From Primulina eburnea (taxonomy: Eukaryota > Streptophyta > Magnoliopsida > Lamiales > Gesneriaceae): DNA of 64,000 nt. The stretch spans positions 25,244,978 to 25,308,977 of the forward strand of contig NC_133105.1 in the NCBI RefSeq assembly GCF_022965805.1. Reading direction: 5' to 3'. This document shows positions 1,549 to 39,303 of the stretch, piece after piece; the first letter of the stretch is position 1; each line of letters begins with the position of its first letter. The notes beneath the pieces were generated by a model. That model made no database searches. It saw only the letters and a list, made by a program, of their open reading frames with translations, and was not told the origin of the DNA. The translations under genes and the position numbers were made by a program.

Positions 1549-1976
1549 ATTATCAACTACCATGTTTGATTCAATGGGACTTATATGTGTATAATGCAAT
1601 CCAGTAGGGAGCATTGGTAGTTTTTCGATCACATATTTCTTTCCTGATTTAAATGTGATAAGACACATATATTTCTCATTCCCTTCATTCATTGTTTGAG
1701 TATCATACCCATGGGAATATATATCATTAAAACTCAACAAATTTCTTTTCGATTGTGGTGAATATAAAGTATCATTGATAAAAAAAAATTTGTACCATTA
1801 GGTAACAAAAATTGTGCTTTACCACATCCTTTAATCAAGTCTACAGGACCTGATATTGTATTCACCGTTGTTTTTGTTGGTTTTAGTTCCAAGAAATATC
1901 TTTTATCTCGGAGGATAGTGTGCGTTGTACCACTATCGGGTATGCAAACTTCACCTTTGCTCATAGCATTTTCCAT
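1549..1976 (-). pseudogene. copia protease and pre-integrase fragment
   Basis: Two overlapping minus-strand frames follow gag. The first (1976-1734) has the copia aspartic protease motif CIPDSGTTHTIL, in which the Asp of DSG is the expected catalytic residue. The second (from 1740) resembles the GAG-pre-integrase region that precedes the integrase zinc finger. The frame changes between the two near 1740. The sequence stops at the family A LTR, so no integrase or reverse transcriptase follows. Confidence 0.7.
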
Positions 1977-15603: not shown

Positions 15604-18550
15604 TGTAGAATCCGTAATTAGACTGCGTATAAGCCATGCATAATTATAGTATTTTAAATTTAATTGACTTCATTGCATGAGTATTTAAGTGTTTTCTTTG
15701 AACTTAATTATTTGATCCAGTAGTTTAGATTTTTCTCTTTTCAGTTAATTCGGTGAGGCCGGACCGGGGTTGGAGTATAGAGATAAAATTTAGTAAGAAA
15801 ACATTTTCCAAAATTTATTTAAGATAAATAATGAGTAAATTTATTGTAAAAGAAGGTTTAAGGAATTAATTTAAATAAGTTGAAATAAGTAGTAAATAAA
15901 GTTCAATAATTAAATCCTTAATTCTCTAAAATATTTAATGGGAAGATAAAACACTAAAGATTAAAAATGCAATATTTAAGAGATAGTTTCCCTCCATTTT
16001 ATATGAAATTATCTGCCCCTTCTTTTATTTAAAAAGATTTTATTAGTTGGCAATTCATTTCTTAATTATCCTTCCCTTAAAAATTTCTAGGTAAATATTC
16101 TCCTAACTTTTAAATCCCTACCAATTAATTAATTAAGCACTATTTCTCCCTTGCACCTAGACACCATGATCGACCCTATGCACCCCAATATCCCCTCAAA
16201 ATCTTTGATATTATTCTTGTTTCCTATCTAGCAATTAAACTAGGATAGAAAGATTATTCTCCTCCCTTTATCTTGCAATCTTCCCATATATTTTCCCTAG
16301 CCTTCCTCCCCATCACAACCACCGAAAATTGGAGAGAATTCAGAGCATTTCAGAGAGGGAAAAACCGTGAGAAAAGTAGAGAAAACAAGAGGGAAAAATC
16401 GAAGGAAAGCTAGGTAGAAAAGTGCACTCCGTCTCCTCCGCGCCGTATCGTCTATTCTTTTCGTTTTTCTTTCAAACGAAAACCAAGGTATGTTTATAAT
16501 CTTTCTTGCTCTTCAATCAAGTCCTACTATTATTTTTAAACATCACTTGTACATGATTTTATACAAGAAAACCGAAATATACATCAAGCCTTTTCGAAAT
16601 GCATGTGCAGATTTTTTTTCGACTTTCATGGCAGCTTCACGGTTTTCTCAAGTTTTGTGGTTTTAGGTGGATGGTTCGATTCCAAGCTCACTAGGCTACA
16701 TCTAGACACATACTAGGGTATGTCAAGACGGTAATGGTCCATTCAAACAAGCCCCATACATGACAAAAATCGAAAATAAAAGCAGCTTCTCTTCCGTGCC
16801 ATTTATGTTTCGAAATTCTGTGTGTGCTGTCAAAGGAGAAAGGATCTGATCTTGGTTGTCCCAAGGGCCTATAGCCATGGTTAGATCACTTCTCTAGCAT
16901 GTCTAAGACGTGACTAAGTTGCCCTTTTGGTGGCTTGTTCCATGGTACGCCGGTTTTTAAATCAAAAGCAAGAACATCCACCTTCCCTTCTCGGCCCTTC
17001 GGTTTTTGACAGCACTTGTGCTTCGAGTTTTGTGGAATGGTATGGATCTTGTTTGGCCTATGGCCCTTAGCCACGGTTCATCCCCTACCACTGGATGTCT
17101 AAATCGTGCCATGGTCAATGAAATGGCCACTGGAACGACACAAGACAACGAACGAAGCGGAACCCCCCAAGCGCGCAGATTTCGTTCTTGGCTAGGGGTG
17201 TGGTCGTGTTTCTGGTGTGGTTCGGATTGTGGCTGGCCTAGGGCCATTAGCCATGGTTCAAATCATTCCTTGGGATGTTGTGGAGAGGCTCTGGTCGGTG
17301 GTTCAAGCCCCAATGGCCAAAAGTCTCGCAAACGACGCGATGCAAGCGAAGTCGCTGCTGCTGGAATTTGACAGCAACTTGTTGTGACGGTTTGGAGGCT
17401 CGTTCGAGTTCTTGGTTCGCTTTTAGCCTATGGCCTTGGACTGGACAGTGCCTCATCGAGTTAGGAAGGCCACTTTTTTGGTCGTTCGTGATTCGGATCA
17501 TTTTTGAAGTCGTACGGGAATTTACGGTGCGATGTGCCAAATTGACTCTCGAAAGAGCATTTCATGTTTTGGCCTCCATTTCACCTAAATTTCGACCCTC
17601 ATCATTTTAGGAGCATAAATTCACAATTTTAAGCGTATTTTAATCATGACGTTACGTTGGTTCAGTGTTGATTCGCGTTGGTTCGGAGTCATGATTAAAT
17701 ACGAAGTCGTTAGTAGTAATTGTCACATTTTCAAACTTAATTGCATAGTTTGGTCAAGAAAAATCTATTGCATATTTTTCATGGCATATTTAGGTCGCAG
17801 CGAGCCTGGGGACGATCCAATCCAGTTGGTAAAATAATACAGGATATTTCTTTTTGCCATTTAATTTTATTACGTGCATAAAATAGAAAATACTTATTTT
17901 TGAGATTTATGCGATATTGCTTGTGGTCAATCATGGGAGTATTATTTTACACGGTCGATAGTGACCGATCAGTTCAGTTTTGTACTACCCGGTCGCCAGT
18001 GACCGATCAGTTCAGTTTGGTAACCCGGTCGCCAGTGATCGGACAGTTCAGTTCAGTGCAGAGGCCACATGCGTAGACCATAATCTCAACAGAAAATTAT
18101 TACAAATTATTTCAGTACAGGGCTCCAAGGAGCAAACCCTTTTACCATGATTATGCAGTTCAAGTTATGCACGTATTATAATTGCTCAGTACATAGTATT
18201 TACTCGTTACCTACGATATATGCATGCTGAGTCTTTAGGCTCACTAGACTTGATTGTTGTAGGTACTGATGAGCATGGGGCCGAGGGCGGGGACCAGTGA
18301 GCCAGCTTGGGTCGGCAGTAGTGGCACTCGAGGACCTCATTTTCAGCACTTACCATTTTATGCAAACATTTTTATCCGTTGTTGAACATTTATAACTTGT
18401 TATTTTTGCAAACAAATATTTACTTCCGCTGCCATTTTGAATATCAGACCTTGTTTATCGGTTTAGTTACGAATGAGGCATTTTAATTATTTAAAAAGAA
18501 AATTTTAAATTTTTCGCAAATTTTCAAGCAAGGATTTTCGGGCCTTCACA
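15604..18550 (+). mobile_element. Family A LTR, copy 2 (about 2.9 kb, left edge uncertain)
   Basis: From about 17090 rightward it matches copy 1 (1-1548), and it ends GGGCCTTCACA at 18550. A possible left end is TGTAGAATCC at 15604, because ATTCG precedes it and ATTCG also follows the right end (18551-18555). A 5-bp match can arise by chance, so the left limit is tentative. A leader-like region with donor-like CAAG/GTATGT lies near 16487. No protein is encoded. It may be a solo LTR. Confidence 0.5.
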
Positions 18551-18564
18551 ATTCGTTTGATCAA

Positions 18565-20119
18565 TGTTGCGACTTTGATTGTTGCACTCCCAAGAGCAGG
18601 TTGTCCACAAGTAATATAATTCGGTGAGTCCGAATATCGTATCCACAGGGAAGCTAAGGTAATTACAAGTCCACTACAATGTCTTTTTGTTTTGTTTTTG
18701 TTTTTTTTTTTTTAATTTTAATTGTTTGAATATTTAATGGGTAAATTTTAATTGTTCAAATTTTAATTTAAGTAGTTGAGATTAAAGGATCCACTCTTGG
18801 TATTTTAATAAAGTTAACATTAACGAACAATATTGAAATCTACTTAATAAAATGGTTCCAATATATTAAATAATCATATTTATATTATGTTATAAATTAT
18901 TATCTCATAAATATATAATATATACCAAAACTTATAAATGTGGTCAAGTATTTATTGTGCTATATATATATATATTTGTAAACACTAAATCAAGGTTCCC
19001 ACTTTAAATGGTTGGTAAAACCAAACTAACATTTAAATGGTACCAAGAAAATATTATTATGATATATTTATATATATTAAATCAAGGAATCCAAGTTAAA
19101 TGGTTGGTAAAACCAAACTAACATTTAAATGGTTCCAAGAATTTAATATTATAATATATTTATATATAATAAATCAAGGCATCCACTTTAAATGGTTGGT
19201 AATACCAAACTAACATTTAAATGGTTCCAAAAATTTAGTGTAACATATAGCAACAATAAATCAAAACTCCCACTTATAAGTAGGGTATAAAAATGCTTAA
19301 AGAAATAAATATAACATAAACAATAAATAATGATTAAATAATATAAAACATAGATTCTTACCTTTTAGTAACCTTATTATCATGCCAAGAGCTTCACCTT
19401 ATCATCTCAACTTTAGGAAGTTAGCTATTGAAATTAACATGCTAATTATATTTAAATGAAGAAATAAAAGAAAAATATAGAGAGAAATATTATGAACTCA
19501 AAGGTTTGTTCATAGAATGAGGGATATCTCAATACATTACAATGCACCACTATTTATAGCCAAATTTGGGGAGACAATCCACAAATAAAATATTATTTTT
19601 TACACATAAGTCTTCATTGGTGTTCCAAGAAATTAATATTATACTACACATCACTTTTGAAAATCTTCTTCTCCGAATTTGCTTCTTCACATAAAATGAA
19701 ACATGTGGATAATTGAGTTGTCTAGTTGTGGTATTTTTTTTAGAATATTTGACAATGTAATTTGAGAGATATGGTCAAAATACTAGAGCATGGTAAAACT
19801 GCCACTCCTTTGGTAACTTTAATTGTTGCTTAATTTGATCCCACTTGTGAGAGGATTTTTTTCTCATGCTTGTCAACAATATTGTAGATATTATAATCAA
19901 CTTTCTACAGGTCCAAGAATCATCTTAATCCATTTGAAACTCCAAGTTTATTCTTGTTTTATCGAACCTGTAAAAAATAGTAAAAACTTGTAATCAAATA
20001 ACAACTTATATTTTATACAATTTATTATAAAACATATAATATTTAAACATTTAATAAAACAAAAACTATATATGTATATTATAAAACATTTAATTAATGT
20101 ACAATTTTTATATTTATCA
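18565..20119 (-). repeat. Element B 3' LTR
   Basis: 1555 bp, TGTTGCGACTTTG...ATATTTATCA in + orientation, matching 29867-31163 joined to 39043-39303. Contains three or four copies of a 'taaatggttggtaa(a/t)accaaactaacatttaaatgg'-type direct repeat (18990-19240), T tracts and a short AT microsatellite. It is followed at 20120 by the CACCTCCCAACC complement of a purine tract. Confidence 0.93.
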
Positions 20120-21353
20120 CACCTCCCAACCAGCTTATTGCTAGTCCCTAGCAATTTAAGCGTTAATAGCAATACAAAACATATTGATTAATTTAAATAG
20201 AAATGCAATCAGAACTATCTAAGTGTTTAAATTAAATTTGAAAACTGTCAAAGTTATATCAAGATCATTATAATTATAATTTATGAAATAATCTGAACTG
20301 ATCAATTCAAAGCTTGTTTTCAGGTAGTTAAATGTACATGGCCTTCAGAAATTCCTAATAAGAGTCTCAACTCCATATTCTCACAAGTTAATAAGTGTTT
20401 CAATTTATGGGAATGATTTCTCTCATGGAGTTGGAATACAGATACATGCTCAGGAAAATGGTTTACAGAATGCAGACAGACAAACGAGCCAAACTAATCA
20501 AAAGATAGGAAATCCATTGATTTAAAATCCAGTTGTTCTTATTATATATATTTTTTTTCCTGATTTTTTTTACATCATGAAATCAGACTAAGTTTATGCT
20601 TCTTGATCACATATTCATTTAATTTGTACAATGTATTTCTCTCTTTCTTTCTTTTTTTACTTTTTTTTTTATTTGTATTTTTATGAGAGATAAATGGGTC
20701 GCAGCATGTAACTTAAAAATTACATAGATCTTCAACTTCTTTCTTTTTTTTTTTTTTTTTTTTTCAGGAAATATCAATTTTTTTTTCAAAATAAGAACAC
20801 AAGATCTAAACAATAGATAGCCTCTCTGGTGATCAATAAAGGCTCGCAAGCTGTTTACTCAATCCTCTCCACTCACTCACAAAATATGTGTGAGTTTAAA
20901 AATTTTAGGCACTTTTATCAGGTATATCATGGGCCACATACTTTAATAACTGATTTTATCACAATGGTTAATCATTCAAAAAGATTTCATAAATCATATA
21001 TTTATAGTGATCAAAATATTAAAATTGACTTTTTTTTTTCAAATAAAAATTAAACATCCTTAGATAGATTAATACATTTTTTAATTTAAACCTTTCAAAT
21101 ATGTAATGTATGATCTTTTTGCAAAAATTACAAAGATACAAGCAATAAACATGATTGTATTATAAAATAATATATATATTTTTATTTTTTAAATTTATTT
21201 TTATAAGTTTGTTCTCCCCCCAATCAGAATATGACATTGTCCCTAATGTCAAAATAACTATTAATAGAGAGTACATAATGAAAGAGATATCACCTGGAAT
21301 TTTATTGAAGATAACAAACTGAAACAAACGCAAACCAATCCACGACGTTTGAA
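20120..21353 (-). other. Element B 3' untranslated region
   Basis: No supported gene. It contains long T-rich tracts (about 20640-20765). A C-run, GTTCTCCCCCCAATCAG, near 21211 gives a purine tract on the element strand and resembles the internal purine tracts seen in Athila/Tat elements. Confidence 0.6.
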
Positions 21354-21991
21354 TCAATGATCCAACTTCCTTTTCTTACTGCTTGATTGCGACCAATTGA
21401 TATTTTCAATCATCGGATCAGGCTTATGAACAAAAGCTTCCAAATCATCAATTAATTGGTCGGCAGTCGAAGCACAGATGAGCATCCGTCGTGAATTTTC
21501 TGAAATGAAATTCTGTTCCACAGCTTTATCAAGAAATGTCAACAAACTGTCATAATAGTTATTGATATTCAACAAGCCCACGGGTTTATTATGGATATTA
21601 AGTTGTGCCCAAGAAACAGTGTGAAAATTTCTTCTAATGTACCAAAACCACCTGGTAGTGCGATAAAAGCATCAGAATTTTCAATCATTTGAGTGATTCT
21701 TTCATATATAGAATAAACTTTTAATTCCTCCCCAATCGTAACACCTGTAATATTTCCTTCAGCTAAAGCTATAGGAATAACACTCAAAACCTGACTACCT
21801 CCAAGATGAGCAGATGTTGAAACAGATCCCATTAACCCAATATTACCTCCCCCATATACCAAGTGAAATTTTCTCTCAGCCAATATCTTTCCAAGATTAT
21901 TCGCTGCTTCTACAAACACTTCATTTTTTCCAGGACTCGACCCACAAAATACACAAATATTTTTCAATGTTTGTGTAGAGGATCCAGCCAT
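21354..21991 (-). pseudogene. Captured LOG-like cytokinin riboside 5'-monophosphate phosphoribohydrolase
   Basis: About 212 codons from MAGSSTQTLKN (ATG at 21991) to a stop at 21354, close to the usual LOG length. LOG enzymes release active cytokinin bases from their ribotides. Visible family motifs are VFCGSSPGKN, HLVYGGGNIGLMG and the signature PGGFGTLEE. Past a frameshift near 21620 come KPVGLLN-type sequence (GLLNINNYYDSLLTFLDKAV) and a LOGL10-like tail (CASTADQLIDDLEAF, HKPDPM). The Lys usually following the Arg of the M-H-x-R-K motif is replaced (YERITQM). Plant LOG genes have several introns; none is present here, which suggests capture through an mRNA. It lies in element sense between the integrase/extra ORF and the 3' LTR. 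LOG membership is strong; activity is doubtful. Confidence 0.88.
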
Positions 21992-22198: not shown

Positions 22199-22909
22199 CT
22201 ATGAGTCGAGGATATGCTTCCCATCCAATTTTCTTATAAATTGGCAAACAGGGTCTTTTTTAGTCGGATTCCCAAGACTATGACGCTCATCTTGAAATTG
22301 TTTCCATAAACGGAGAAGTTCAATATGCACATGTCCACTAGAATGCGTCTCAAGAGTCAATAAGATGTTATCTAAAGACTCCTTACTCAGCCCATTCTTA
22401 ATGAAATCAATTTTATCTTCTCTGTTATTGGAAACACATCCCAAAGATCTGCATCGTTTGTCACAAGTCCATCTTGCACACTTATGACAAACCCCTAAAC
22501 TTTTGGCCCTTCGTTTTTTCGCATAAGTGCTTTTTCCTAATCCAGGCAAATACCGAATGAGCAATGATTGTGGAACTTCTCCTCCTAATCGGACCTTAGC
22601 TTCAATTACAAGATGAATATCTTCTGGAATTCCTTTTTGCATTAGCAATCTCAATCTTTCACACCTTCCTGCATAAATTTTTCTTAGAACACTTTCAGAA
22701 ACAGAGGGAAATTATTTACAAATTTTTGAGAGAATTTCATCCATTTTGAAAAGAAAAGAAATGATTTTTTTTATTTTTGTATCAGCAATTGTGGGAAACT
22801 GATTTAACCGACTATGAGAGTCACGGAGTACCGTTATCCGCCATTTAATCGAGAAAATAAAAAGATTAAGGAAACCTGAAATAAAAACAAACAAAATTAA
22901 ATGCAACAT
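22199..22909 (-). pseudogene. Post-integrase cysteine-rich ORF of element B
   Basis: Begins with a hydrophobic segment (LHLILFVFISGFLNLFIF), then MDEILSKICK, an in-frame stop near 22715 and a continuous part to 22199. A cysteine cluster CHKCARWTCDKRC (C-x2-C-x4-C-x3-C) follows a basic stretch KKRRAK. I do not recognise the domain. Its place after integrase is where Athila elements carry an envelope-like or extra ORF. The same reading frame runs on past the 22199 stop, through a membrane-segment-like stretch, into the LOG-like frame. Confidence 0.6.
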
Positions 22910-22915
22910 AAAAAT

Positions 22916-24628
22916 TTAAGGATCAGAAAGGGAAATAAACTCTTCTTGAAAGATTTTATTTTCCAAAAATGGTTTAAGCCTTTGTCCATTCACTTTAAAA
23001 ACATCACCATTTTTAGGATTTTCAATATCCACAGCTCCATAAGGATACACATGCTTTACAACATATGGGTCTGTCCATCTTGATCGTAATTTTCCTGGGA
23101 ATATGTGAAGTCGAGAATTATAAAGCAAAACTTTTTTACCAATCTCAAAAGATTTTCTAAGAATTGTTTTATCATGAAATGATTTGATTTTTGCTTTATA
23201 AATCCTTGAATTCTCATACGCATCATTTCTGAGTTCATCAAGTTCATTAAGTTGCAAGTTACGCAATTTGTTGGCATCATCCATGCTTGAATTTAAAGTT
23301 TTGATCGCCCAATAAGCTTTATGTTCCAATTCCACAGGCAAATGACAATGTTTTCCATAAACCAACCTATAGGGAGACATATTCAATGATGTTTTAAAAG
23401 CTGTTCGATATGCCCACAGTGCATCATTAAGTCGCAGAGACCAATCTTTTCTATTTGAGTTTACAGTTTTTTCCAAAATTTGCTTTATCTCCCTATTAGC
23501 TAATTCAACTTGTCCATTTGTTTGAGGATGATAAGGAGTTGTTACTTTGTGAGTAATACCATATTTTTTCATTAATGAAGCAAATGGTTTATTAACAAAG
23601 TGAGTTCCCCCATCACTTATCATAGCTCGAGGAATTCCGAATCTACTAAAAATATTTTCTTTCAAAAATTTGATGACGATTTTATGATCATTTGTTCGAC
23701 ATGGAATTGCCTCTATCCATTTGGAAACATAATCAACTGCAACTAAAATATACAAGTATCCAAACGACGGTGGAAAAGGTCCCATAAAATCAATTCCCCA
23801 ACAGTCAAAGATTTCAATTTCAATGATAGGATTTAAAGGCATCATGTTTCTTTTTGAAATTGCACCCAATTTTTGACAATTTTCACAGATCTTGCAGATT
23901 TCGTGGGTGTCTTTAAACAAAGTGGGCCAATAAAATCCACACTGCAGGATTTTTGCAGCTGTTTTCTTTGAAGAAAAATGTCCTCTGCATGCTTCTGAAT
24001 GACAAAATTTAATGACACTACTTACCTCATTGTCGGGTATGCAACGTCGAAAAATTTGATCTGGACAGTACTTGAACAGATACGGATCATCCCAATAAAA
24101 GTTTTTTACCTCATTCAAAAATTTTCTTTTATCTTGGGAACTCCATTGTGGTGGCATTTTTCCTGTCACAAGAAAATTTACTATGTTAGCAAACCAAGGT
24201 GTAGTAGTAACTGAAAATAGATGTTCATCAGGAAAATTATCGTTAATTGGTGTCATTTCAAAAGATGATCCTGTTACTAGTCTCGATAAATGATCGGCTA
24301 TGACATTCTCGGTTCCTTTTTTATCTTTGATCACAATGTCAAATTCTTGGAGCAACAAAATCCATCGTATCAGTCGTGGCTTTGCATCCTGTTTCGTCAA
24401 CAAATATCTAATAGCAGAATGATCAGTAAACACAATAGTCGTTGATCCAATCAAATAAGAACGAAATTTATCTAATGCAAATATTACAGCAAGTAGTTCT
24501 TTTTCAGTTGTGGAGTAATTCATTTGAGCATTGTTTAAAGTTCTACTTGCATAATATATCACATAAGGCTTATCGTTTCTTCTTTGACCCAGTACTGCAC
24601 CGACTGCATAATCACTCGCGTCACACAT
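22916..24628 (-). pseudogene. Element B RNase H and integrase
   Basis: 570-codon frame starting at the RNase H motif [16 protein letters not shown], which retains the catalytic Asp, with [24 protein letters not shown] and [12 protein letters not shown] following. Next is the integrase zinc-binding region (H...H...CENCQKLG) and the DDE core: [22 protein letters not shown] and [18 protein letters not shown]. The integrase C-terminal region ends the frame. In element order it follows the reverse transcriptase in the same frame, separated by two stops. Integrase would insert the cDNA in the nucleus. Confidence 0.9.
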
Positions 24629-25464
24629 GATTTCAAATGGTAAAGATCAATCAGGTGGTTGCATGATAGGAGCCAATGTTAAATGTCGAATGATTTTATC
24701 AAAAGCATTTTGACATTCTTGAGTCTACTCAAATGCACTGTCTTTTGTTAAGAGGTTACAAATGGGTTTAGAGATTAAACTAAAGTCCTTTATAAACCTC
24801 CTATAAAATCCAGCATGTCCCAAAAATGAGCGAATTTCTTTAATGGTTTTTGGAGGGGGTAAATTTGCAATGACATCCACTTTGGCTTTATCAACTTCAA
24901 TTCCATGAGATGACACGACATGTCCCAGAACAATCCCAGAAGTAATCATGTAATGACATTTTTCCCAATTTAAAATAAGACCTTTTTCCTCGCATCTTTT
25001 TAAAACTTTTTCCAAATTTTCAAGATCATTATCAAATGTATTCCCAAAGACAGTTAAATCATCCATGAAAATTTCCAAACAATTTTCAACCATGTCGCAA
25101 AAAATGCTTAGCATACATCTTTGAAATGTTGTTGTGGCATTGCATAATCCAAATGGCATCCTTCTAAATGCAAATGTTCCAAAAGGACATGTGAATGTAG
25201 TTTTTTCTTGATCTTCGAGTGCAATAGGAATTTGATAATAACCTGAATATCCATCAAGAAAACAGTAGTATGGATGACCTGCTACTCTTTCTAAAATTTG
25301 ATCCAAAAATAGTAATGGAAAATGATCTTTTCTAGTGGCGTCATTTAATTTTCTATAATCAATACACATCCGCCAACTAGATGGGACTCGACTTGTTAAC
25401 AATTCACCTTTTTCATTTTTTATCACTGTGATGCCAGATTTTTTTGGAACTACTTGTGTTGGGC
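24629..25464 (-). pseudogene. Element B reverse transcriptase (two nonsense codons)
   Basis: Shows WRMCIDYRKLNDATRKDHFP, YYQIPIALEDQEKTTFTCPF, MPFGLCNATTTFQRCM and the active-site FMDDLTVFG, all typical of the Athila lineage. The frame continues to RNase H but is interrupted near 24726 (after DSAFE) and near 24643 (after QPPD). In relatives both positions are Trp, so both stops look like TGG to TAG/TGA changes. Upstream, a single-base deletion near 25467 separates it from the protease frame. Confidence 0.88.
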
Positions 25465-27840
25465 TTACCCATTACTATCAGAAATAGGGTAGATAATCCC
25501 AACATCAAGTAATTTGAGAACTTCAGTTTTCAAAACATCTTTCATGTGTGGATTTAATCTCCTTTGTGGTTGTTGAGATATTTTAGCATTTTCTTCTAAA
25601 TGAATTTTGTGTGTGCAAATTAGTGGATTAATGCCCTTCAGATCTTTTAGTGTCCAACCAATTGCATTTTTATGTCTTTTAAACATTTCAACTAATTTAC
25701 CTTCTTGATCACTTTCTAGTTTGGAAGAAATTACCACCGGATATGTTTCATCTTCTCCAAGAAATGCATACTTCAATTCTTCTGGCAAGGGTTTTAACTC
25801 CAATATTGGTGGTTCGTCTTTGTTCTCATATTTTGCATCAAATTCTTTCTCTGATCCTGTTAACGAGTGATACCTGATAAAATCATCAAGATCAATTTCA
25901 ATATTTTCTTTAATAGTTTCAATTGAACAAATATCTAATTGATCACGAGTACTCCCTTCTTGAATGTTTTCTTCCACAAGAGTTTCAATAAGATTTTCAT
26001 CTTCACTTTCATCTCCTTTGTCATGTGGTTGCTTACAAAGATTAAAAACATTGAGCTCCAAGGTCATGTTACCAAATGACAACTTCATTATTCCATTCCT
26101 GCAATTTATAAGAGCATTAGAAGTTGCTAAAAATGGACGACCCAGAATTACAGGAATTGCATTACAAGCTTCGATAGGTTTTGTATCTAAAACTATGAAA
26201 TCAACAGGATATACAAAGTTATCAACTTGGACCAACACGTCTTCTACCATACCTCTTGACACTTTAACAGATCTATCAGCAAGTAAAAGTGTTACCGAAG
26301 TAGATTTTAACTCGCCTAGATTGAGTTCTTGATAAACTGAATATGGAAGTAAATTAACACTAGCTCCAAGATCAAGCAATGCTTTTTTCATCTTTCGTTC
26401 TCCAATAATACAAGAAATAGTAGGACAACCAGGGTCTTTGTATTTCAAAGCATTATTATTTTGAATGATTGCACTTACTTGTTCTGCTAAAAATGCTTTC
26501 TTTTTCACATTCAATTTTCTTTTCACAGTGCACAAGTATTTCAAAAATTTTGCATATGATGGTACCTGTTTTATTGCATCTAATAAAGGAATATTAACTT
26601 TTACTTGTTTAAAAATATCATATATATCAGAATTCAAATTTGATTTTTTTGTATTTTTCAATGCATGAGGGAATGGTGGTGACACTGTCTGTTGAACCTC
26701 CTCTTCGCAAGTTATGGGTTCCACTTCCTTACCATTTGGAGTTGATTTATCATCATCTTCACAAGGTTCAAGAATGGATTTTTTCACAACCTTACCACTT
26801 CGAAGGGTAATAACAGATTTTACCTGATCCATCGGTTGAGTTCCAGAAGTTCCAGTTTGTGTATGATGATCCTTGGGATTAGGCAGAGGTTGTGAAGGAA
26901 ATTTACCTTTTTCATGAACATTAAGTGCAGATGCAAATTTAGCAAGAGTATATTTCAAATCTGTCATGGTTTGAGCAGTTTGAGTATTGATAGACTCTTG
27001 CTTTGCAATGAAAGAATTCAATGTATCTTCCAAATTTCTTTTCGGCGGAGGAACATAAGGTGCATAATTTTGAAATTTTTGTTGATTTTGAAAATGTGGT
27101 TGCGGAAATTGTGCAGCATTATCATTCCTCCAACTAAAATTTGGATGGTTTCGCCAACCTAGATTGTAATTTTGAGAAAATGGTTCAAAATTTGGCCTTT
27201 TGAAATTGTTCAAAACATTGGCTTGTTCATGGAGACATTCTTTAAAAGAGGGCAAAGTGGGACAATCTTTTGTAAAATGATCACTTGTATCACAGATGTG
27301 ACACGCAATTTCTTGAACAGATTTTAATTGACCATTCTTTTTCAATTCAAGTGCCTCAACTTTTCTTGCCAAAGAGGTAAATCTAGCTTGAAGATCATGT
27401 TCATCTTTGAGAGTGTACATACCTCCACCAGATGTAGGAGATTGAATCTTGTTTGATGGTTCGATTGTACCTATAGTGTCCCAATTTTGAGCATTTTCAG
27501 CTAATGAATCGAGATACTCAATTGCCTCGTTTGGATCTTTATCTTCAAATATTCCATTACACATAAATTCAACCATTTGCCTATCTTTAGGTGTTAAGCC
27601 TTCATAAAATTGAGAAACAACTCTCCAAATTTCAAAACCATGATGTGGACAAAGATTAAGCAATTCTTTGTATCTATCCCAACACTGATAAAAAGTTTCT
27701 CCTTGTTTTTGAGTGAAAGTGATGATTTGCCTTTTGAAAGAATTTGTTCTATGAGATGGAAAAAACTTTTTCAAAAATTGTTGTTGCAATTCATCCCAAG
27801 TTCGAATGGATCCCGATCTAAGATTTTGTAGCCAAGTTTT
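25465..27840 (-). pseudogene. Element B Gag C-terminal part, zinc knuckle and protease
   Basis: 774-codon frame. Gag core residues (LKKFFPSHRTNSFKRQI, CWDRYKELLNLCPHHG) are followed by a CCHC knuckle, CHICDTSDHFTKDC. After a Pro/Gln-rich linker comes an aspartic protease with LLDLGASVNLLPYSVY, where D-L-G replaces D-T/S-G, and VILGRPFLATSNALI. It ends with the start of reverse transcriptase at a frameshift. The N-terminal end of Gag is displaced 1.5 kb away by the solo LTR. Confidence 0.88.
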
Positions 27841-29344
27841 TGTAGTAGCCCGAATTCCAAATTGGGTAATTAACGGATTAATGGTGATTAAGAAGGTTTA
27901 ATGTGTAATTTTGACCGAGTCATGATCGGACGGACCGAAGATGGTTCGGAAGCACCGAAGAGTTCGTAAGGTCCGAAGTGAGTTCGGTGGATCCGATAAT
28001 TAGGTGTCAAGAGTTGATCGACACGTGGGAGTTCGGACGTTCCGAAGTGTAGGTTCGGTGGATCCGATCATGAGGTGTCAAGAGCAGCTGGACACGTGCA
28101 TGTTCGGACGGTCCGAAGTGTATGATCGGAGGATCCGATCATGAGCTGTCAAGAGCCAATGGACACGTAGCGTTCGGACGTTCCGAAGTGTTGTTCGGAG
28201 GATCCGAACATGGCCTATAAATAGTGCTCGGATTTCTCATTTTTGGTATTGCCATTTCTTGAGATTGAGTCTTTAGTGAGAGATTTGGAAGGTTTCTAGG
28301 GTTAGTTGTTGGTCGAGCGATAGCCAAGAGCTGCCAGGAGTAGTAGCGTAGCGGCGCCTGAGTTTCAAGGCAATCGACATCAAAGGGCTGTCGACGGACG
28401 AAGGTAAACCCTAAACCTTTGGTAGTACTAGGGAGTACTGGTTTTGCTAGTCTAGCATGGTAGTATTGTTGATTGAGTATGCTTTTGATGCGTAGGCTTG
28501 TGCTAGACCTGATTAGCGGTGTTGCGTAAGGCTAGGCTTGCTGTGATAGAGGTACGAAAGTACTATCCGAGATATCTTGGTTGAGTATACATTCTTATAT
28601 GTGTTGCATGATTATGTGGTGCATTGATATATGTCATATGATGCATGCTATTATGTCACGTTTATTACTGCACGTTGCATTTCATGTTGAGCCGTATCTT
28701 CTTCGAGATAGCCTTTACTGTTGAGCTGTATCTCTTTCGAGATAAGCTATATCTTGGGGCCGCTCAGCCCTGTCTTGTGGACGCATGGACACCGAGAGTA
28801 CACAGTGGCCGACGGGTCGGGAGGGCTTCGGTGGTCCGGGACATTTTAGGTCCACGTCTGTCTTGTAGTGGATGCAGTGACCCAGAGGTTGGACCGCGCG
28901 GCACTATCCACTTGGCGCCTCTAGACTGAGCATTTTGAGATCCTTTGTGATTCCTGTTTCTTGACTACCCTGGTATCATATCATAGCATGTGCATTTCAT
29001 ATAGGTTTGTATACTCATACTTTTGTACTGGGCGTTCTTATCGCTCACGTCCTCGGTTTTGTTTATTCTTGGACACCCCATTCCCTCGGGGCAGGCCTCA
29101 GGTTGGACAGCTCAGGAGGAGCAGGAGGAGGACGTTGAGTAGCTGGTTGGTTTAGTTATCGGTATTGTTTTGATTCGATATGGTTGTATTGGGTATTTTT
29201 ATATTTTGAGTTATTCTGATTTCGATTGGGTTGTATAACCATTATTGTTGTTGACTTTTCCGCTGTTATCTCTGATTATTGTTAATTAGGTTAATTGCAT
29301 GCTTAGTTTTTGATTAGTAGGTGATTCTGGAACGGGTCACTACA
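27841..29344 (+). repeat. Solo LTR of a Tekay-type family, inside element B gag
   Basis: 1504 bp, TGTAGTAGCCCG...GGTCACTACA, flanked by exact GTTTT duplications (27836-27840 and 29345-29349). Its ends and right third match the reverse complement of the element E LTR (e.g. the block near 29040-29150), so it is a family member in opposite orientation. No internal region remains, as expected after LTR-LTR recombination. It splits gag after the codons for LKDKAKT. Its left part carries a palindromic minisatellite (27925-28215). Confidence 0.93.
27925..28215. repeat. Palindromic minisatellite in the solo LTR
   Basis: Four to five units of about 60 bp built from paired motifs such as GTTCGGACGGTCCGAAG and GATCGGAGGATCCGATC, separated by CAAGAG...GACACGTG. 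The units are GC-rich and can fold on themselves. The element E LTR has an unrelated minisatellite in the corresponding region. Confidence 0.8.
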
Positions 29345-29670
29345 GTTTTAGCTTTATCTTTTAAAGAAAAAGGAAAAAGCTTAAGGCGAATGGTGTTCAT
29401 GCTACAATTTAGATCATTATATGTGTTGCACACTTCTTCAAACTCTCGTAAATGCATGTATGGATTTTCAGAATCTAAGCCATGAAAGTTGGGTAAAAGT
29501 TGGATAATACCAGGCTTAAAATTTAAATGAGATGCATCAGGGGGAAAAACTAGACATGAAGGTGCACTAGTACGTGTAGGATTCATGTGATCTCTAAGTG
29601 TTCTTCGTCTATCATGATCATGTTGAGATTGAATTTCATCTTCATTTTCTTGGATGGGTTCCTCCGCCAT
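29345..29670 (-). pseudogene. Element B Gag N-terminal part
   Basis: Starts at MAEEPIQENEDEIQ (ATG at 29670), about 170 bp inside the primer site, and reads into the Gag core (LNFKPGIIQLLPNFHGLDSE, LKLFPFSLKDKAKT). The solo LTR interrupts it at 29344. The continuation is at 27840. The split is exact apart from the 5-bp duplication. Confidence 0.85.
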
Positions 29671-29840
29671 GTTTTGTAAAAATAAAGGGTTATTTCGAAT
29701 GAGTCGACCACTAAGTGTACGTGACCAAATGCTCATGCAAATGTAAATGCAAAAGAATAAAAACACACAAAAGCAATAAAAATTCAAATAAAGAAAAATA
29801 AACTATAAACAAAATTAAATAGACTTGAAATTAAATTATA

Positions 29841-29860
29841 CTTCCCCGGCAACGGCGCCA
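29841..29860 (-). other. Primer-binding site of element B (tRNA-Asp type)
   Basis: The + strand reads CTTCCCCGGCAACGGCGCCA, so the element strand carries TGGCGCCGTTGCCGGGGAAG, the Athila-type site complementary to the end of tRNA-Asp. The LTR begins six bases further on. Confidence 0.88.
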
Positions 29861-29866
29861 AAAACT

Positions 29867-31163
29867 TGTTGCGACTTTGATTGTTGCACTCCCAAGAGCA
29901 GGTTGTCCACAAGTAATATAATTCGGTGAGCCCGAATATCGTATCCACAGGGAAGCTAAGGTAATTACAAGTCCACTACAATGTCTTTTTTTTTTTTGTT
30001 TTTGTTTTTGTTTCTTTTTAATTTTAATTGTTTGAATATTTAATGGGTAAATTTTAATTGTTCAAATTTTAATTTAAGTAGTTGAGATTAAAGGATCCAC
30101 TCTTGGTATTTTAATAAAGTTAACATTAACGAACAATATTGAAATCTACTTAATAAAATGGTTCCAATATATTAAATAATCATATTTATATTATGTTATA
30201 AATTATTATCTCATAAATATATAATATATACCAAAACTTATAAATGTGGTCAAGTATTTATTGTGCTATATATATATATTTGTAAACACTAAATCAAGGT
30301 TCCCACTTTAAATGGTTGGTAAAACCAAACTAACATTTAAATGGTACCAAGAAAATATTATTATGATATATTTATATATATTAAATCAAGGAATCCAAGT
30401 TAAATGGTTGGTAAAACCAAACTAACATTTAAATGGTTCCAAGAATTTAATATTATAATATATTTATATATAATAAATCAAGGCATCCACTTTAAATGGT
30501 TGGTAATACCAAACTAACATTTAAATGGTTCCAAAAATTTAGTGTAACATATAGCAACAATAAATCAAAACTCCCACTTATAAGTAGGGTATAAAAATGC
30601 TTAAAGAAATAAATATAACATAAACAATAAATAATGATTAAATAATATAAAACATAAATTCTTACCTTTTAGTAACCTTATTATCATGCCAAGAGCTTCA
30701 CCTTATCATCTCAACTTTAGGAAGTTAGCTATTGAAATTAACATGCTAATTATATTTAAATGAAGAAATAAAAGAAAAATATAGAGAGAAATATTATGAA
30801 CTCAAAGGTTTGTTCATAGAATGAGGGATATCTCAATACATTACAATGCACCACTATTTATAGCCAAATTTGGGGAGACAATCCACAAATAAAATATTAT
30901 TTTTTACACATAAGTCTTCATTGGTGTTCCAAGAAATTAATATTATACTACACATCACTTTTGAAAATCTTCTTCTCCGAATTTGCTTCTTCACATAAAA
31001 TGAAACATGTGGATAATTGAGTTGTCTAGTTGTGGTATTTTTTTCAGAATATTTGACCAAGTAATTTGAGAGATATGGTCAAAATACTAGAGCATGGTAA
31101 AACTGCCACTCCTTTGGTAACTTTAATTGTTGCTTAATTTGATCCCACTTGTGAGAGGATTTT
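29867..31163 (-). repeat. Element B 5' LTR, inner part
   Basis: Matches 18565-19860 closely. It is interrupted at 31163 by element E and resumes at 39043. Differences from the other LTR seen by eye are a handful of substitutions plus length changes in the T tract and AT microsatellite. Confidence 0.93.
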
Positions 31164-32723
31164 TGTAGTGACCCGTTCCAGAATCACCTACTAATCAAGA
31201 ATTAAGCATGCAATTAACTAAATTAATAACAATCAGAGATAATTGCGGAAATGGTCAACAAACGATAGATATACAACCCAAATGAAGTCCAGAATAACTC
31301 AGAATAAAAAATATGCGGTACAACCATATCGAAACAAACAGTACTGAAGAACTAAACCAACCGGCTACTCAACGTCCTCATCATCCTCCTCCTGAGCCAT
31401 CCAACCTGAGGCCTGCCCCGTGGGAATGGGGTGTCCAAGATAAACAAAACCGAGGACGTGAGCGATAAGAACGCCCAGTACAAAAGCATGAGTATACAAG
31501 CCTATATGAAATGCACATGCTATGATATGATACCAGGGTAGTCAAGAAACGGGAGTCACAAAAGATCTCAATATGCTCAGTCTAGAGGCGCCAAGTGGAT
31601 AGTGCCGCGCGGTACTCCTCTGGGTCACTGCATCCACTACAAGATCAGACGTGGACCTAAAATGTCCCGGATCACCGAAGCCCTCCGGACCCGTCGGCCA
31701 CTGTTTACTCTCGGTGTCCATGCGTCCACAAGACAGGGCTGAGCGGCCCCACAAGATATAGCTTATCTCGAAAGAGATACAGCTCAACAATAAAGGCTAT
31801 CTCGAAAGAGATACGGCTCAAGATGAAATGTAACATGCAGCAATAAGCGTGACATAATAGCATGCATCATATGACATATATCAATGCAGCAAATAATCAT
31901 GCAACACATATAAGAATGTATACTCGACCAGGATATCTCGGATAGTACTTTCGTACCTCTAGTAAAGCAATCCTAGTCCACAGGAAATCCTATCAATCGG
32001 GTCTAGTCCGTCGTCAGCCCTGACAATATTGAGCTCCCTGACTGACCTTCTCGGACCGTCGGCTATGCCCGGCTGCTCTGTCCCGGGCTGCTCTTCCCTT
32101 CCCGGGCTGATCTTCCCTTCCCGGGCTGCTCTTCCCTTTCTGGCTGCTCTTCCCTTCCCGGGCTGATCTTCCCTTCCTGGCTGCTCTTCCCTTCCCGGGC
32201 TGATCTTCCCTTCCCGGGCTGCTTTTCCCTTTCTGGGCTGCTCTAGAGAGCTAAAACTTGCATTTAAACACACAGTACCCCCTCCACAATGAGAAATCCC
32301 ATGGCCTATTTATAGACCTCAGTCTGCATGAACGTGTCAACCAAATCCCATGCATCCGGACATCTGTCGCTAGGCAGCATGCACAAAGACACCTCACCTT
32401 ACATGCATGAACGTGTGAACCAAATCCCATGCATCCGGACATCTGTCGCTAGGCAGCATGCACAAAGACACCTCACCTTACATGCATGAACATGTTCAAC
32501 AATTACCATGCACTTGACACCTGTCCGGCAGGCGTGTCAACCAAATACTATTCCCGGGCTGATCTTCTCTTCCCGGGCTGATCTTCCCTTCCCGGGCTGC
32601 TCTTCCCTTTCTGGCTACACCTCGGCTTACTCACACGAACTCTAAAGCCAAATTACACATGATTTACTTAATTAAAGATACTTAATCATGTTTATTTAAA
32701 TAAATAGGATTCGGGCTACTACA
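31164..32723 (-). repeat. Element E 3' LTR
   Basis: 1560 bp, TGTAGTGACCCG...GGGCTACTACA on the + strand. Contains a minisatellite of about 19-20 bp based on CTTCCCTTCCCGGGCTGAT (32075-32250 and 32550-32620). It also has a tandem 79-bp duplication starting at 'catgaacgtgt' (32327-32485). Confidence 0.93.
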
Positions 32724-32884
32724 TTCTCCCCCACTTAAAAAGATTTCGTCCTCGAAATCAGGCTAGAAGAAGAACGAAACGAAATCACAGCATCGAAAAA
32801 CAGCTAAAATACTGTTGAATACAACCGATGTTTGGTTTACAACGGAAAAACACATATACATTCATAGTACATCTACAGTACAAC

Positions 32885-33967
32885 TCAAAAGAGCTCTGGA
32901 TGCTCTGAACGCATACGTCTCTCTAACTCCCAAGTGGCTTCTTCAGTGCCTCTGCGCTGCCACTGAATTAAGACAAGAGGAATGATCTTATTCCGCAACA
33001 CCTTGTCTTTGCGATCGAGAATCCGAACTGGTCGTTCCACGTAAGACAAATCCGAATCAAGTTGAAATTCAGAGGGATGTAAGATGTGAGACTCATCTGC
33101 TACATATCGTCTCAACAAAGATACGTGGAACACATCATGAATACTTGATAGGTACGGCGGCAATGCAAGTCTGTAAGCCAAATCTCCCACGCTTTCCAAT
33201 ATCTCAAAGGGACCAATAAATCTTGGAGATAGCTTACCCTTGAGACCAAATCTCAAAATCCTGCGAAAAGGCGAAACTCGGAGAAACACTTTCTCACCTG
33301 GCTGAAATTGAAGAGGTCGACGCTTGGTGTTCGCATAACTAGCCTGTCGATCCTGAGCAGTCTTAATCCGCTTCTTGATTACTGCAACCTTATCAATAGC
33401 CTGCTGGACTAACTCCGGTCCCTCAACATGTCGTTCCCCAACTTCGTCCCAGAATAACGGAGTACGACAACGTCGTCCATACAACGCCTCAAATGGTGCC
33501 ATACCAATACTACGATGATAGCTGTTGTTGTACGCGAACTCAATCAAAGGCAAATGATCCTGCCAAGCGGTTCCGAAACCCATAACACAAGCTCGCAACA
33601 TATCCTCAAGTGTACGGATAGTCCTCTCTGACTGACCGTCGGTCTCTGGATGATAAGCAGTACTCAAACTTATTGAAGTACCCAATGCTGACTGGAAACT
33701 ACCCCAAAATCGTGAGGTAAAACGAGGATCTCTGTCACTAACAATACTGACTGGCACTCCATGCAAACGTACAATCTCTTGAATATACAATCGAGCCATA
33801 CGATCGAAAGTGAAATCACGGTTATATGGCAGAAAATGAGCAGACTTGGTGAGTCGATCCACCACTACCCAAATAGCATCACTGTTCCTCGAAGACAATG
33901 GCAAGTGAGTAAAGAAGTCCATCGTGATATGCTCCCACTTCCATTCAGGAATAGGTAAGTTCAACAA
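32885..33967 (-). pseudogene. Element E integrase and chromodomain-like tail
   Basis: 360-codon frame. The integrase core has [27 protein letters not shown] and [20 protein letters not shown], giving the D-D-E triad. The GPF/Y region reads KLSPRFIGPFEILE. The end, VRILDRKDKVLRNKIIPLV...WQRRGTEEATWELE...HPELF, is the C-terminal chromodomain-like module of Tekay chromoviruses, thought to guide integration into heterochromatin. The frame is separated from upstream pol by a one-base shift near 33985. Confidence 0.92.
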
Positions 33968-35877
33968 TAATCCTCCCGGTCGACGTGCTCTGCCTTAACC
34001 TGCTGACAAACTAGACACTTGGAGACAAATTGATAAATGCTGCGCTTCTTTCCTTTCCACCAAAATCGTGTCCTCAAATCTTTATACATCTTATTGCTTC
34101 CCGGATGAACACTCAACTTGCTTCGATGAGCCTGAGACAAGATCTCTTCCCTCAAAGTATCATCCTCTGGTACTACAACCCGATTATACAAACACAGAAG
34201 ACCATTAGTCTGATAATGGAAATTGCTATCTCCACCAACCAACCGAGCTAATCTCTGAGTCTTGAGATCAGACATCTGAGCATCTCGAATCCGAGTGAAC
34301 AAAGTTGGCTCAGATAAAATGGTAGCAACACGAATGCTCTCCATACCTTTCCGATGTTTGAACTTAAACCCCAACGAACAACAATCCTGGACAGCACTAG
34401 ACATAGCATTGGTCTGAAGTGCAGAGCCTCTCACCTTGCGACTAAGAGCATCGGCTGTGAGATTCGCAGAACCTGGATGGTACTTGATCACACAGTCATA
34501 ATCCTTAAGTAGATCCATCCAACGACGTTGTCTCATGTTCAACTCAGCCTGAGTGAACAGATACTTAAGACTCTTATGGTCAGTAAAGATTTCAAACTGA
34601 ACACCGTACAAATAATGACGCCAGATCTTTAGCGCAAACACAATAGCAGCTAATTCTAGATCATGAATAGGATACTTCTCCTCGTGAGATTTTAACTGTC
34701 TGGAAGCATAAGCGATCACATGACCATTCTGCGTCAACACACACCCTAAGCCTTGAAAGGAGGCATTGGTGTAAACACGGAAACCATTAGATCCTGACGG
34801 TAACGCCAAAACAGGTGCAGAAGTCAGAAGTCGACGAAGCTCTCTGAAACTATCTTCGCACTCAGATGACCACTCAAATGGAACATCCTTCCGAGTAAGC
34901 TGCGTCAATGGTCTAGCTACCTGAGAGAAATTCACGATGAAGCGACGATAATACCCTGCCAGACCTAGAAAACTACGGATTTCGGCCACTGTCGTCGGAC
35001 GTGACCAATTCAGCACTGCCTCAATCTTGCTAGGATCCACAGAAACTCCTTCCTTGGAAATCACATGACCAAGGAATACTACACGATTAATCCAGAACTC
35101 GCACTTACTCAGCTTAGCATACAATTGCTTCTCGCGAAGAATCTGCAACACCATCCTCAAGTGATGAGTATGCTCTTCCACACTGTGAGAATAAATCAAG
35201 ATATCGTCGATGAAAACCACAACAAACTGATCTAGAAAATTCCGAAAGACTCGGTTCATCAGATCCATGAACACCGCTGGCGCATTTGTCAATCCGAATG
35301 GCATAACTAGAAACTCGTAATGCCCATATCGAGTACGAAATGCAGTCTTGGAAATATCATCATCTCTGACTCTCATCTGATGATAACCCGATCGCAAGTC
35401 AATCTTGGAGTAAACAGAGGTACCCTGAAGCTAATCGAACAAGTCATCAATACGAGGTAATGGATACTTGTTTTTGATCGTCACACGATTCAGCTGGCGA
35501 TAATCAATACACAATCGCATCGATCCATCCTTTTTCTTGACAAACAAGACTGGAGCTCCCCAAGGTGAAACACTCGGACGAATATAACCTTTATCAAGAA
35601 GATCCTGCAATTGCTGCTTCAATTCCCTCATCTCTGACGGAGCAAGACGATAGGGGGCACGAGAAATCGGTGTAGTCCCTGGCATTAACTCGATGCCAAA
35701 TTCCACCTCTCTAATCGGAGGAAAACCAGGAATCTCATCTGGGAAAACATCAGGAAACTCACAAACCAGTGGAATATCATCTGTACCAACACTACTTGTG
35801 GATGAATCAATCGCATAGATGAGGTAGCCTTCCCCGCCCGACTCTAAAGCACGACAGGCTTTCAGAGCAGATACCAC
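33968..35877 (-). pseudogene. Element E reverse transcriptase and RNase H
   Basis: RT motifs are [52 protein letters not shown] and the active site [12 protein letters not shown]. An in-frame TAG sits in the DDLFD*LQG region near 35430, where relatives have Gln. RNase H begins [18 protein letters not shown]; the residue normally Asp in YTDAS/YCDAS is Asn here. The zinc-binding start of integrase ([31 protein letters not shown]) precedes a frameshift near 33985. The upstream boundary at 35878 is another in-frame TAG. Confidence 0.9.
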
Positions 35878-37302
35878 TGGCTACGGAGGTCGCGCTCCCT
35901 CACCATAGAAAAACCAACTAGATCTCTCAGTCGTACGAAACTGAACAAGCTTCTGGTAACAATCCACAGTAGCTCGGTAGATAGTCAACAGGTCTATACC
36001 CAGAATACAATCAAAATCTTCCATCTCTAGGATCATAAGATTCGCAGTCAACTCGTTACCCTCAAAATCTAAAGGACAACCCATTACTAGACGCTTTGCT
36101 AACACCGAATGACCCATCGGAGTAAAAACGGAAAGAATGACGTCTAGAGAAACATACGGTAACTTATGACGCTTAACAAATCGTGCAGAAATGAATGAAT
36201 GTGATGCTCCGGTATCAATAAGAACAAAAGCAGGAATACCGCATAAACAAAAAGTACCTGCTATGACTCTCCCTGTCTCATCTGCAGCCTGATCCTGGTT
36301 CAGCGCAAATACCTGACCTTGGGCACGAGGTCGAAGGTTTGAACTACCCATTGCCTGACCCTGCATCCTCTGCTGAACAGTCGTCTGAGATCCGGAACCA
36401 GATCCTGCTCCACCTCGCAACTGAGGACAATTCTTCTTAAGATGACCCATCTCTCCGCACTGAAAACAAGCTCCCGCGGCTGATCGGCACTGCTCCGATG
36501 GATGGTTCTTTCCACAATGCACAGAAGAAACCTTCTTCTTACCAAAGCGAAAAACACCGCTAGATCGAGATCCAGATCCAGAAGAAGAAGAACCTGACTT
36601 CTTGAAAGACTGAGATCGAGGGCTCAAAGTATTCGGAGGTCTAGAAGAAAGAATAGACCTACCACGCTGGAGACTGATCTCTGCCTGGCGACACCGGTTC
36701 ACTAACCCATCATAAGAAGTAGGATTATCGCAGACAGTGACTCGATCAAAGATCTCCTGGTTAAGACCCTGAAGGAAATGGTCATACTTGGCCTCAGAAC
36801 TGCCACTAATATGAGGAGCAAAGGGTAACAACTCGAAGAACTTCTGCTGATATGCATCAACAGACATACTACCCTGCTTAAGATTCAGAAGTTCAATCGT
36901 CTTTGCCTGACGAAGGGCTGGAGGAAAATATAGCTGCATGAAAGCTGCACGGAATTCGGCCCAAGTCACCCTACCCTGAGACTGGACTATCGGCGCAGAA
37001 GTCGATCGCCACCACTTGCGCGCACGGCCCTCGAGAAGAAAACCAAGGGTCTCCATCTGCTGCTCTTCGGTGCATTGGAATGCACGGAAACAACTCTCCA
37101 TGCGCTCTAACCAATCCTCAGCAACATCGGGAGTCTCGCCACCGACTAAAGGCTTAGGCCCCATCTGAATGAAACGGTGCATCTCAAAACGCCTAGGGCC
37201 ATCACGACGATGACGATGTTCACGATGACGCCTACGATCGCCCTGGTCACCCCAACGACCTACACTCCCCTGACTACTCTCATCACCAAGGTGGTCAGCC
37301 AT
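35878..37302 (-). pseudogene. Element E Gag and protease
   Basis: Starts at MADHLGDESSQGS (ATG at 37302), shortly after the primer site; an upstream Met at 37353 is less likely. The Gag core includes AEDWLERMESCFRAFQCTEE and WAEFRAAFMQLYFP. Next is a Ser-rich linker, a CCHC knuckle CFQCGEMGHLKKNC and the protease (FVLIDTGASHSFISARF, with an intact D-T-G). The frame ends at a TAG at 35881 after GARPP, and coding resumes in the same frame, so this is a nonsense change rather than the natural end. Confidence 0.9.
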
Positions 37303-37400
37303 CGCTACAAGATAGAATGGGGAAAATGGTAAAATGGTCAACGAAAATCCCAAAACAGAATCTATATCCCAAAATCATATGCATGCTCTGATACCATAAA

Positions 37401-39037: not shown

Positions 39038-39042
39038 ATTTT

Positions 39043-39303
39043 TTTCTCATGCTTGTCAACAATATTGTAGATATTATAATCAACTTTCTACAGGTCCAAG
39101 AATCATCTTAATCCCATTTGAAACTCCAAGTTTATTCTTGTTTTATCGAACCTGTAAAAAATAGTAAAAACTTGTAATCACATAACAACTTATATTTTAT
39201 ACAATTTATTATAAAACATATAATATTTAAACATTTAATAAAACAAAAACTATATATTTATATTATAAAACATTTAATTAATGTACAATTTTTATATTTA
39301 TCA
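39043..39303 (-). repeat. Element B 5' LTR, outer part
   Basis: Continuation of the interrupted LTR after element E, matching 19865-20119. It ends ATATTTATCA and is followed by the ATCAA target duplication. Confidence 0.92.

Follow-up and report, generated by a model that had tools for sequence, protein, structure and literature searches.

The window analysed here is a stretch of 64,000 nucleotides from Primulina eburnea. Positions 18565-39303 on its minus strand were occupied by one Athila-type LTR retrotransposon, which was bounded by the 5-bp TSD ATCAA at 18560-18564 on the left and 39304-39308 on the right. LTR comparison placed the 3′ LTR (TG...CA) at 18565-20119. The 5′ LTR was present in two parts, an inner one at 29867-31163 and an outer one at 39038-39303, the latter on the far side of a nested Ty3/gypsy element (31164-39037); all of these were on the minus strand, as were the PPT GGTTGGGAGGTG (20120-20131) and the PBS TGGCGCCGTTGCCGGGGA (29843-29860). 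Pfam recognised three frames of gag-pol on the same strand: gag with a zinc knuckle and protease (25465-27897; PF03732), the reverse transcriptase (24725-25471; PF00078), and RNase H plus integrase (22916-24646; PF17917, PF17921, and PF00665).

This copy was damaged. The gag-protease, reverse transcriptase, and RNase H-integrase regions lay in separate frames, with the reverse transcriptase detached from the adjoining ones, and a foreign LTR piece from the family of the nested element was inserted in gag in reverse orientation (28532-29347, plus strand). A gag-start-like frame (29314-29802, minus strand), assigned by eye and without a retroelement profile match, was cut off from the remaining gag by this piece. 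The LTRs of the outer element, compared as two pieces, were 99.0% and 98.9% identical, with 10 differences over 1,554 compared sites (K = 0.0065). The nested gypsy element, which is foreign to the LOG-bearing one, had LTRs that were 93% identical to each other.

Several other features were observed in the window. A 71-bp unit was found in three tandem copies at 27982-28194, adjoining the inserted LTR piece. The left flank of the element (18000-18553) and a segment near the start of the window (956-1551) were copies of a repeat with 77% identity, and the element was inserted beside or into the former. Frames resembling a MuDR-type transposase (47230-50411) and an open frame resembling an F-box protein (55301-56212) were recognised by eye on the plus strand.

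The domain order of the element in the Pfam scan was PR-RT-RH-INT, as in the Athila lineage (Ty3/gypsy, non-chromovirus OTA). Neither an archaeal RNase H (Tat-type) nor a chromodomain was among the matches of the general Pfam scan of seven frames. The PBS TGGCGCCGTTGCCGGGGA, which was found in the window copy and in all nine dated copies of its family (family A, described below), was not of the tRNA-Met type, and we take it to be of the tRNA-Asp type. Non-chromoviruses prime with tRNA-Asp among others, according to the available part of one survey (PMC6317226). The ATHILA ORF-1 domain (PF03078) was absent from the seven scanned frames; however, the same part of that survey gives it for only 16% of Athila elements (PMC6317226), and thus it is not a defining Athila feature. 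By its gag-pol order, PBS, and PPT, the element fits the Athila lineage.

Between the integrase and the 3′ LTR, in element sense, there was a LOG gene (PF03641; 21354-21991, minus strand) with its ATG at 21991 and its stop at 21354-21356, which agreed with the position and strand given in the original prediction. The LTRs, the ATCAA duplication, the PPT, and the PBS placed this gene inside the transposon, as had been claimed from the TSD-defined boundaries. The LOG assignment also held in a profile comparison: the two halves of the gene matched PF03641 independently (2.7e-15, 57.2 bits and 1.3e-14, 54.9 bits; cut-off 27), a similarity far beyond chance. The gene could be aligned over all residues, 1 to 212, of the intact relative P0121 (212 aa), and no intron-sized gap was present, in line with the earlier description of an intron-less copy. 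The same alignment supported the claim of a near full-length LOG in extent; however, it was not one open frame. Residues 1-123 were encoded in one frame (21991-21623) and residues 108-212 in another (21671-21357), so that a frameshift between about 21623 and 21671, directly past PGGFGTLEE, had been overlooked. The PGGxGTxxE motif and the catalytic-type Arg and Glu, which we take to be the catalytic residues, were present. Nevertheless, the window copy of LOG is broken, and no LOG product is possible from it.

An adjacent virus-type gene had been missed. It was located between the integrase and LOG (22199-22744, minus strand; ATG at 22744), comprised about 182 aa, and contained a zinc-finger-like CHKCARWTCDKRC and a basic KKRRAK. 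In the window copy an in-frame stop (22712-22714) followed the tenth codon. The frame matched PF01623 (Carla_C4, the putative nucleic-acid-binding protein, NABP, of carlaviruses) with 1.5e-7 and 31.7 bits (cut-off 20.9), and its match to PF05515 (22.5 bits) was slightly below the cut-off of 23. Seven of eight scanned relatives exceeded at least one of these two Pfam cut-offs, and P0093 was below both. The best match of a relative was 1.1e-8 across about 85 residues; for the window copy and the eight relatives together, the best E values ranged from 1.1e-8 to 2e-4, and the profiles covered only the middle part of the protein. No viral NABP relative was found in IMG/VR, by either a single-protein or an alignment query. 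For one relative (P0012), structural prediction gave a poor model (pLDDT 56.5). At rank 1 of its fold search, and best among the viral matches, was an RNA silencing suppressor of Fig latent virus 1, but this match was not significant (E 0.21). This fold search was not counted as evidence because of the low confidence of the model.

The NABP-like protein had relatives in several plants. At E ≤ 0.001, 391 of the 438 candidates from a protein search were relatives, and the named ones among the best 120 listed were plant proteins, for example from Xanthoceras, Populus, Acer, Orobanche, and Rhamnella. In the Rhamnella protein (P0052), an integrase-like end, identified by eye, was followed by the NABP domain in a single frame. 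An alignment of 53 relatives across plants had a mean column identity of 64%. In the P. eburnea genome, PF01623 was found at no fewer than 123 places at E ≤ 0.001, all over the cut-off, with 150 of 818 candidates scored. It was found in none of 14 control genomes, all of them prokaryotes and thus a weak control. In other plants, contigs of equal size (8723, 4511, and 2128) were common to the best 120 listed relatives of NABP and of LOG; a fourth one (905) was too short for both genes. These contigs are only suggestive of co-location of NABP and LOG outside Primulina.

The 812-Mb genome was searched by profile, and PF03641 was found at 150 or more places, all above the cut-off, with 150 of 1,042 candidates scored. 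The family of the window element (family A) was sampled at 28 loci, namely the 8 best and 20 more out of the 150 listed. Integrase, NABP, and LOG occurred together in all 28, including a rearranged locus (L019) in which integrase and NABP were on the strand opposite LOG. The LOG frame was ungapped and free of stops over residues 2-211 in 26 of these loci, which had been selected by LOG score; only 16 of the 28 had an NABP frame that was open from MDEI through KHIL. A second family (family B; L029-L038) had the same gene order in all ten fetched loci. Its identity to family A was about 80% for integrase (less where the match was split), about 56% for NABP, and 67% for LOG. The ten copies had just two distinct LOG DNA sequences; their NABP frame was shorter in one copy, and in the other nine its C-terminal end departed from the conserved one. 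A protein in public records under the name ‘LOG3-like [Primulina eburnea]’ (P0186) belonged to family B and was located at 17 dispersed places with 100% (rounded) identity, 11 of which shared the top score. The usual order in these families is therefore gag-pol, the NABP/CRP-like gene, LOG, and the 3′ LTR, and further Athila copies carrying LOG do exist in the genome, a check that the original prediction had named. We also considered whether NABP had entered the window copy alone, by way of a nested viral insertion or an endogenous carlavirus; its recurrence in all 28 and all 10 fetched loci of the two families led us to reject this.

LTR dating was attempted on ten family-A copies. It was possible for nine, since the tenth gave no match for a 5′ LTR; in one of these nine the 3′ LTR was truncated at the edge of the fetched stretch. 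The two LTRs differed by no substitution in four copies, by one in two copies, and by 3, 16, and 15 in the others. The four substitution-free pairs spanned 1,478-1,570 bp, and one of them included 92 gap positions. TSDs of 5 bp were readable in the eight dated copies with both outer ends visible. Family A is thus a young, high-copy, and recently active family.

The host LOG genes of the same genome were different in structure. A search with a 60-residue query gave 14 exon-type matches with 64-91% identity that covered 43-47 of the query residues; one of them had an internal stop. Element LOG copies were found in the same search at 40-45% identity, below the host matches (150 of 873 candidates scored), and longer AtLOG3 pieces used as queries were swamped by element copies. 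Two host genes (L139 and L140) were each split over four or more separated blocks, some of them short and weak, which bore out the earlier statement that plant LOG genes contain introns. The element LOG contains no host introns. Since the host genes have several exons, capture from an mRNA, as proposed before, fits this difference. That LOG was recently captured from a local parent is unsupported, because LOG was present in all 28 and all 10 fetched loci of the two families and the element LOG clade lay apart from the host LOGs sampled.

With these two host genes, which represent 2 of the 14 host-type places, the window LOG shared identical runs of at most 16 nt in the sense direction and at most 17 nt in antisense. 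It had been suggested that a mobile LOG copy could silence its parent genes by small RNA. That is unlikely, because the identical runs are so short while selection acts on the protein. For the same two reasons we hold it extremely improbable that LOG acts through RNA in general, be it that small RNAs of the element silence host LOG or that the LOG sequence shields the element from silencing, although the high copy number would suit such a role.

The phylogeny of LOG was inferred from 22 element-type, 20 host, and 17 bacterial sequences; one of 18 bacterial rows was dropped, and in two rows stops were converted to X. The element-type (100/99), host (100/98), and bacterial (100/99) sequences each formed one clade, and the element-type and host LOGs were sister groups. 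The element-type clade was recovered in 100% of 200 bootstrap trees, although the bootstrap was not fully settled. Since the host sequences were closely related to Arabidopsis LOG3 and LOG8, the tree may lack a host subclade that is closer to the element LOGs. Three listed Populus proteins named ‘LOGL10’ belonged to the element-type clade, so that the label ‘LOGL10-like’, which the original prediction had given to the C-terminus, is misleading. Judging from copy numbers, names, and clade, the database proteins from plants other than Primulina are presumably element-borne as well. Several independent captures of host LOGs by different Athila lineages would agree with the narrow host sample of this tree, and the two families described here and the elements reported from Citrus and Populus, as far as the available part of that report goes (PMC9289625), could have separate origins. 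However, the single clade with its full bootstrap recovery, the tail that is common to the element LOGs, and the NABP neighbour in both Primulina families leave only a very small chance for this explanation.

Selection on the element genes was estimated at two levels. Between families A and B, LOG had a dN of 0.26 and a dS of 1.24 (dN/dS 0.21, 24 pairs) and integrase had a dN/dS of 0.12 (24 pairs), with dS between the families near saturation; the ratio between copies was among the checks named beforehand. The pairs for each gene were composed of 12 A and 2 B copies, taken from 27 and 10 copies for LOG and from 17 and 8 for integrase. Within family A, among the loci chosen by LOG, the pooled pN/pS was 0.46 (0.30-0.79) for LOG in 27 copies, 0.67 (0.40-1.11) for NABP in 22 copies, and 0.35 (0.19-0.72) for integrase in 17 copies. 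The corresponding controls, which were wrong frames and antisense, gave 0.69-1.17, 0.77-0.90, and 0.57-0.98, respectively, and the bootstrap intervals of LOG and integrase overlapped those of their controls.

The sample chosen by LOG was biased by its selection, and therefore a sample chosen by integrase was also used. Of 54,565 candidates in the integrase search, 146 were scored, the window copy included, and 79 of the 146 matches lay within an open frame of more than 1,700 codons by hand count. Every tenth match was taken, which gave 15 loci and a sample biased toward copies that resemble that of the window. LOG was at the expected place in 14 of them and was full length without a stop in 12. 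The pN/pS of LOG in 13 ungapped copies was 0.27 (0.10-0.78), compared with 1.19, 1.05, and 0.84 for the controls, whose intervals were wide (from 0.31 up) and overlapped that of LOG. All of these intervals are rough, because the copies share ancestry. Taken at the sequence level, there is a good case that LOG is under purifying selection. For NABP, whose pN/pS was not separate from its controls, the case for purifying selection within this genome is weak. A neutral LOG that simply hitch-hiked with a successful family would also be found in many copies, as chance can amplify a single capture, and that LOG is able to decay is evident from the window copy. Nevertheless, such a passenger is very unlikely in view of the low dN/dS between the families, the pN/pS in the integrase-chosen sample, overlapping intervals included, and the length of the protein, which was at least 195 aa in 81 of 120 listed relatives.

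These 81 full-length proteins formed the element-type set for a comparison of residues, and the 39 shorter ones were left out. Of the 81, 79 retained the catalytic-type Arg and 77 the second Glu of PGGxGTxEE. The Tyr of PGGYGT was found in only one element-type LOG versus 112 of 120 host LOGs (the other eight were without a motif match), and the Lys after the catalytic-type Arg was found in none versus all 120 host LOGs. With Tyr and Lys replaced, the activity or the substrate of the element-type LOGs may therefore differ. A basic C-terminal tail with KKRKL, which is nuclear-signal-like, was present in 57 of the 81, and 60 ended in LxLxL or DLxL; neither was matched in the 120 host LOGs. The LxLxL end is presumably EAR-like. 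The Primulina element LOGs kept the basic tail and were without the LxLxL end. The model of the intact relative P0121 (pLDDT 80.5, with the tail at low confidence) had the LOG fold; its best PDB match was 2a33 (At2g37210), with a TM score of 0.92 by target length and 0.76 by query, and it also matched 5zbj.

The two C-terminal motifs and the replaced residues near the active site raise the question of a job for LOG outside cytokinin metabolism, as a nuclear or regulatory protein that the KKRKL tail would direct to the nucleus and the LxLxL end to co-repressors. However, the catalytic-type Arg and Glu are still conserved, the Primulina members have no LxLxL end, the motifs are simple patterns, and the tail is a low-confidence part of the model. 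Thus, we consider this role unlikely.

We regard it as probable that LOG, in the young, high-copy Athila-type family of which the window locus is a damaged member, originated from a spliced transcript of a plant LOG and was then maintained by selection as a gene of the element. The capture would be ancient and probably a single event. A selection-kept LOG beside a virus-like gene suggests that the element may use LOG for host manipulation. The element-made LOG would cut cytokinin riboside monophosphates and thus release free cytokinin where the element is expressed; free cytokinin would favour a dividing, meristem-like state, in which new copies could be made and inherited. The NABP-like protein may blunt RNA silencing or alter host transcription. 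In the accessible text of a paper on viral cysteine-rich proteins (CRPs), these proteins suppress RNA silencing and one acts as a hyperplasia-inducing transcription factor (PMC12172455). Cytokinin released by the element LOG, together with an NABP that blunts silencing or alters transcription, is the most likely mechanism in our judgement, although we rate it at somewhat less than even; expression, enzyme activity, the cytokinin effect, and silencing suppression are all presumed in it. A narrower version, in which two genes form a module for host manipulation, one for a silencing suppressor or transcription factor of flexivirus type and the other for a cytokinin-activating enzyme to which a nuclear/EAR-like tail was added, is put forward as a speculation that we think rather doubtful. 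If true, the element would switch host cells to a state of division with less silencing, as certain viruses and gall-forming organisms do.

An active enzyme would mean that a plant hormone is produced by a selfish element, and this would be relevant to the question of why some retrotransposon families carry extra genes. In addition, genes of such elements can be mistaken for host cytokinin genes in annotation, as with the ‘LOG3-like’ protein P0186 and the three Populus ‘LOGL10’ proteins, and the number of LOG genes given for plant genomes may be too high.

LOG in Ty3/gypsy elements is already known. Two Athila-like elements with LOGL4-like extra ORFs were reportedly described by Steinbauerova et al. 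in 2011, and the LOG-type extra ORF of Athila-like elements is at the 3′ position. In the available part of a later study, Gypsy consensus sequences with the YgdH (LOG) domain are given for two Citrus species, and for Populus trichocarpa as well when no filter was applied, a finding that the study put in line with Steinbauerova et al. 2011 (PMC9289625). The LOG-family domain in Ty3/gypsy is common to those elements and ours. The present case differs in the asterid genome, the two families, the recent activity, and the NABP-like partner, and it also includes a selection test, the tail motifs, and a tree. Among the titles and abstract openings searched, with subscription journals thinly covered, an NABP-like gene in such elements, its pairing with LOG, and the selection and tail of their LOG were not found, and by titles no paper on repeats of the P. 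eburnea genome was found. The NABP pairing, the selection, and the tail are thus without an earlier report in the literature covered.

Compared with plant LOG3 and LOG8 (which we take to be 2a33, At2g37210, and 1ydh, respectively), the element LOG has the same fold, catalytic-type Arg and Glu, and length. In contrast, it is without introns, has PGG[F/L/I]GT, has the Lys after Arg replaced, and belongs to a separate clade, in which many members have an extra C-terminal tail. The NABP-like protein resembles the cysteine-rich proteins of carlaviruses and allexiviruses (NABP; PF01623 and PF05515) in that a basic stretch is followed by a zinc-finger-like Cys cluster in both; however, the element gene encodes about 182 aa, is matched by the profiles in its middle only, and is carried by a retrotransposon. 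Another Gypsy system with a gained and retained host-type enzyme is formed by the Ogre-related elements of Phalaenopsis, which carry an AlkB m6A demethylase with activity shown in vitro, according to the part of the report available (PMC9289625). AlkB occurs in flexiviruses as well. The likeness to our element lies in the gain and retention of such an enzyme by a Gypsy element, whereas the enzyme, the element lineage, and the plant are different.
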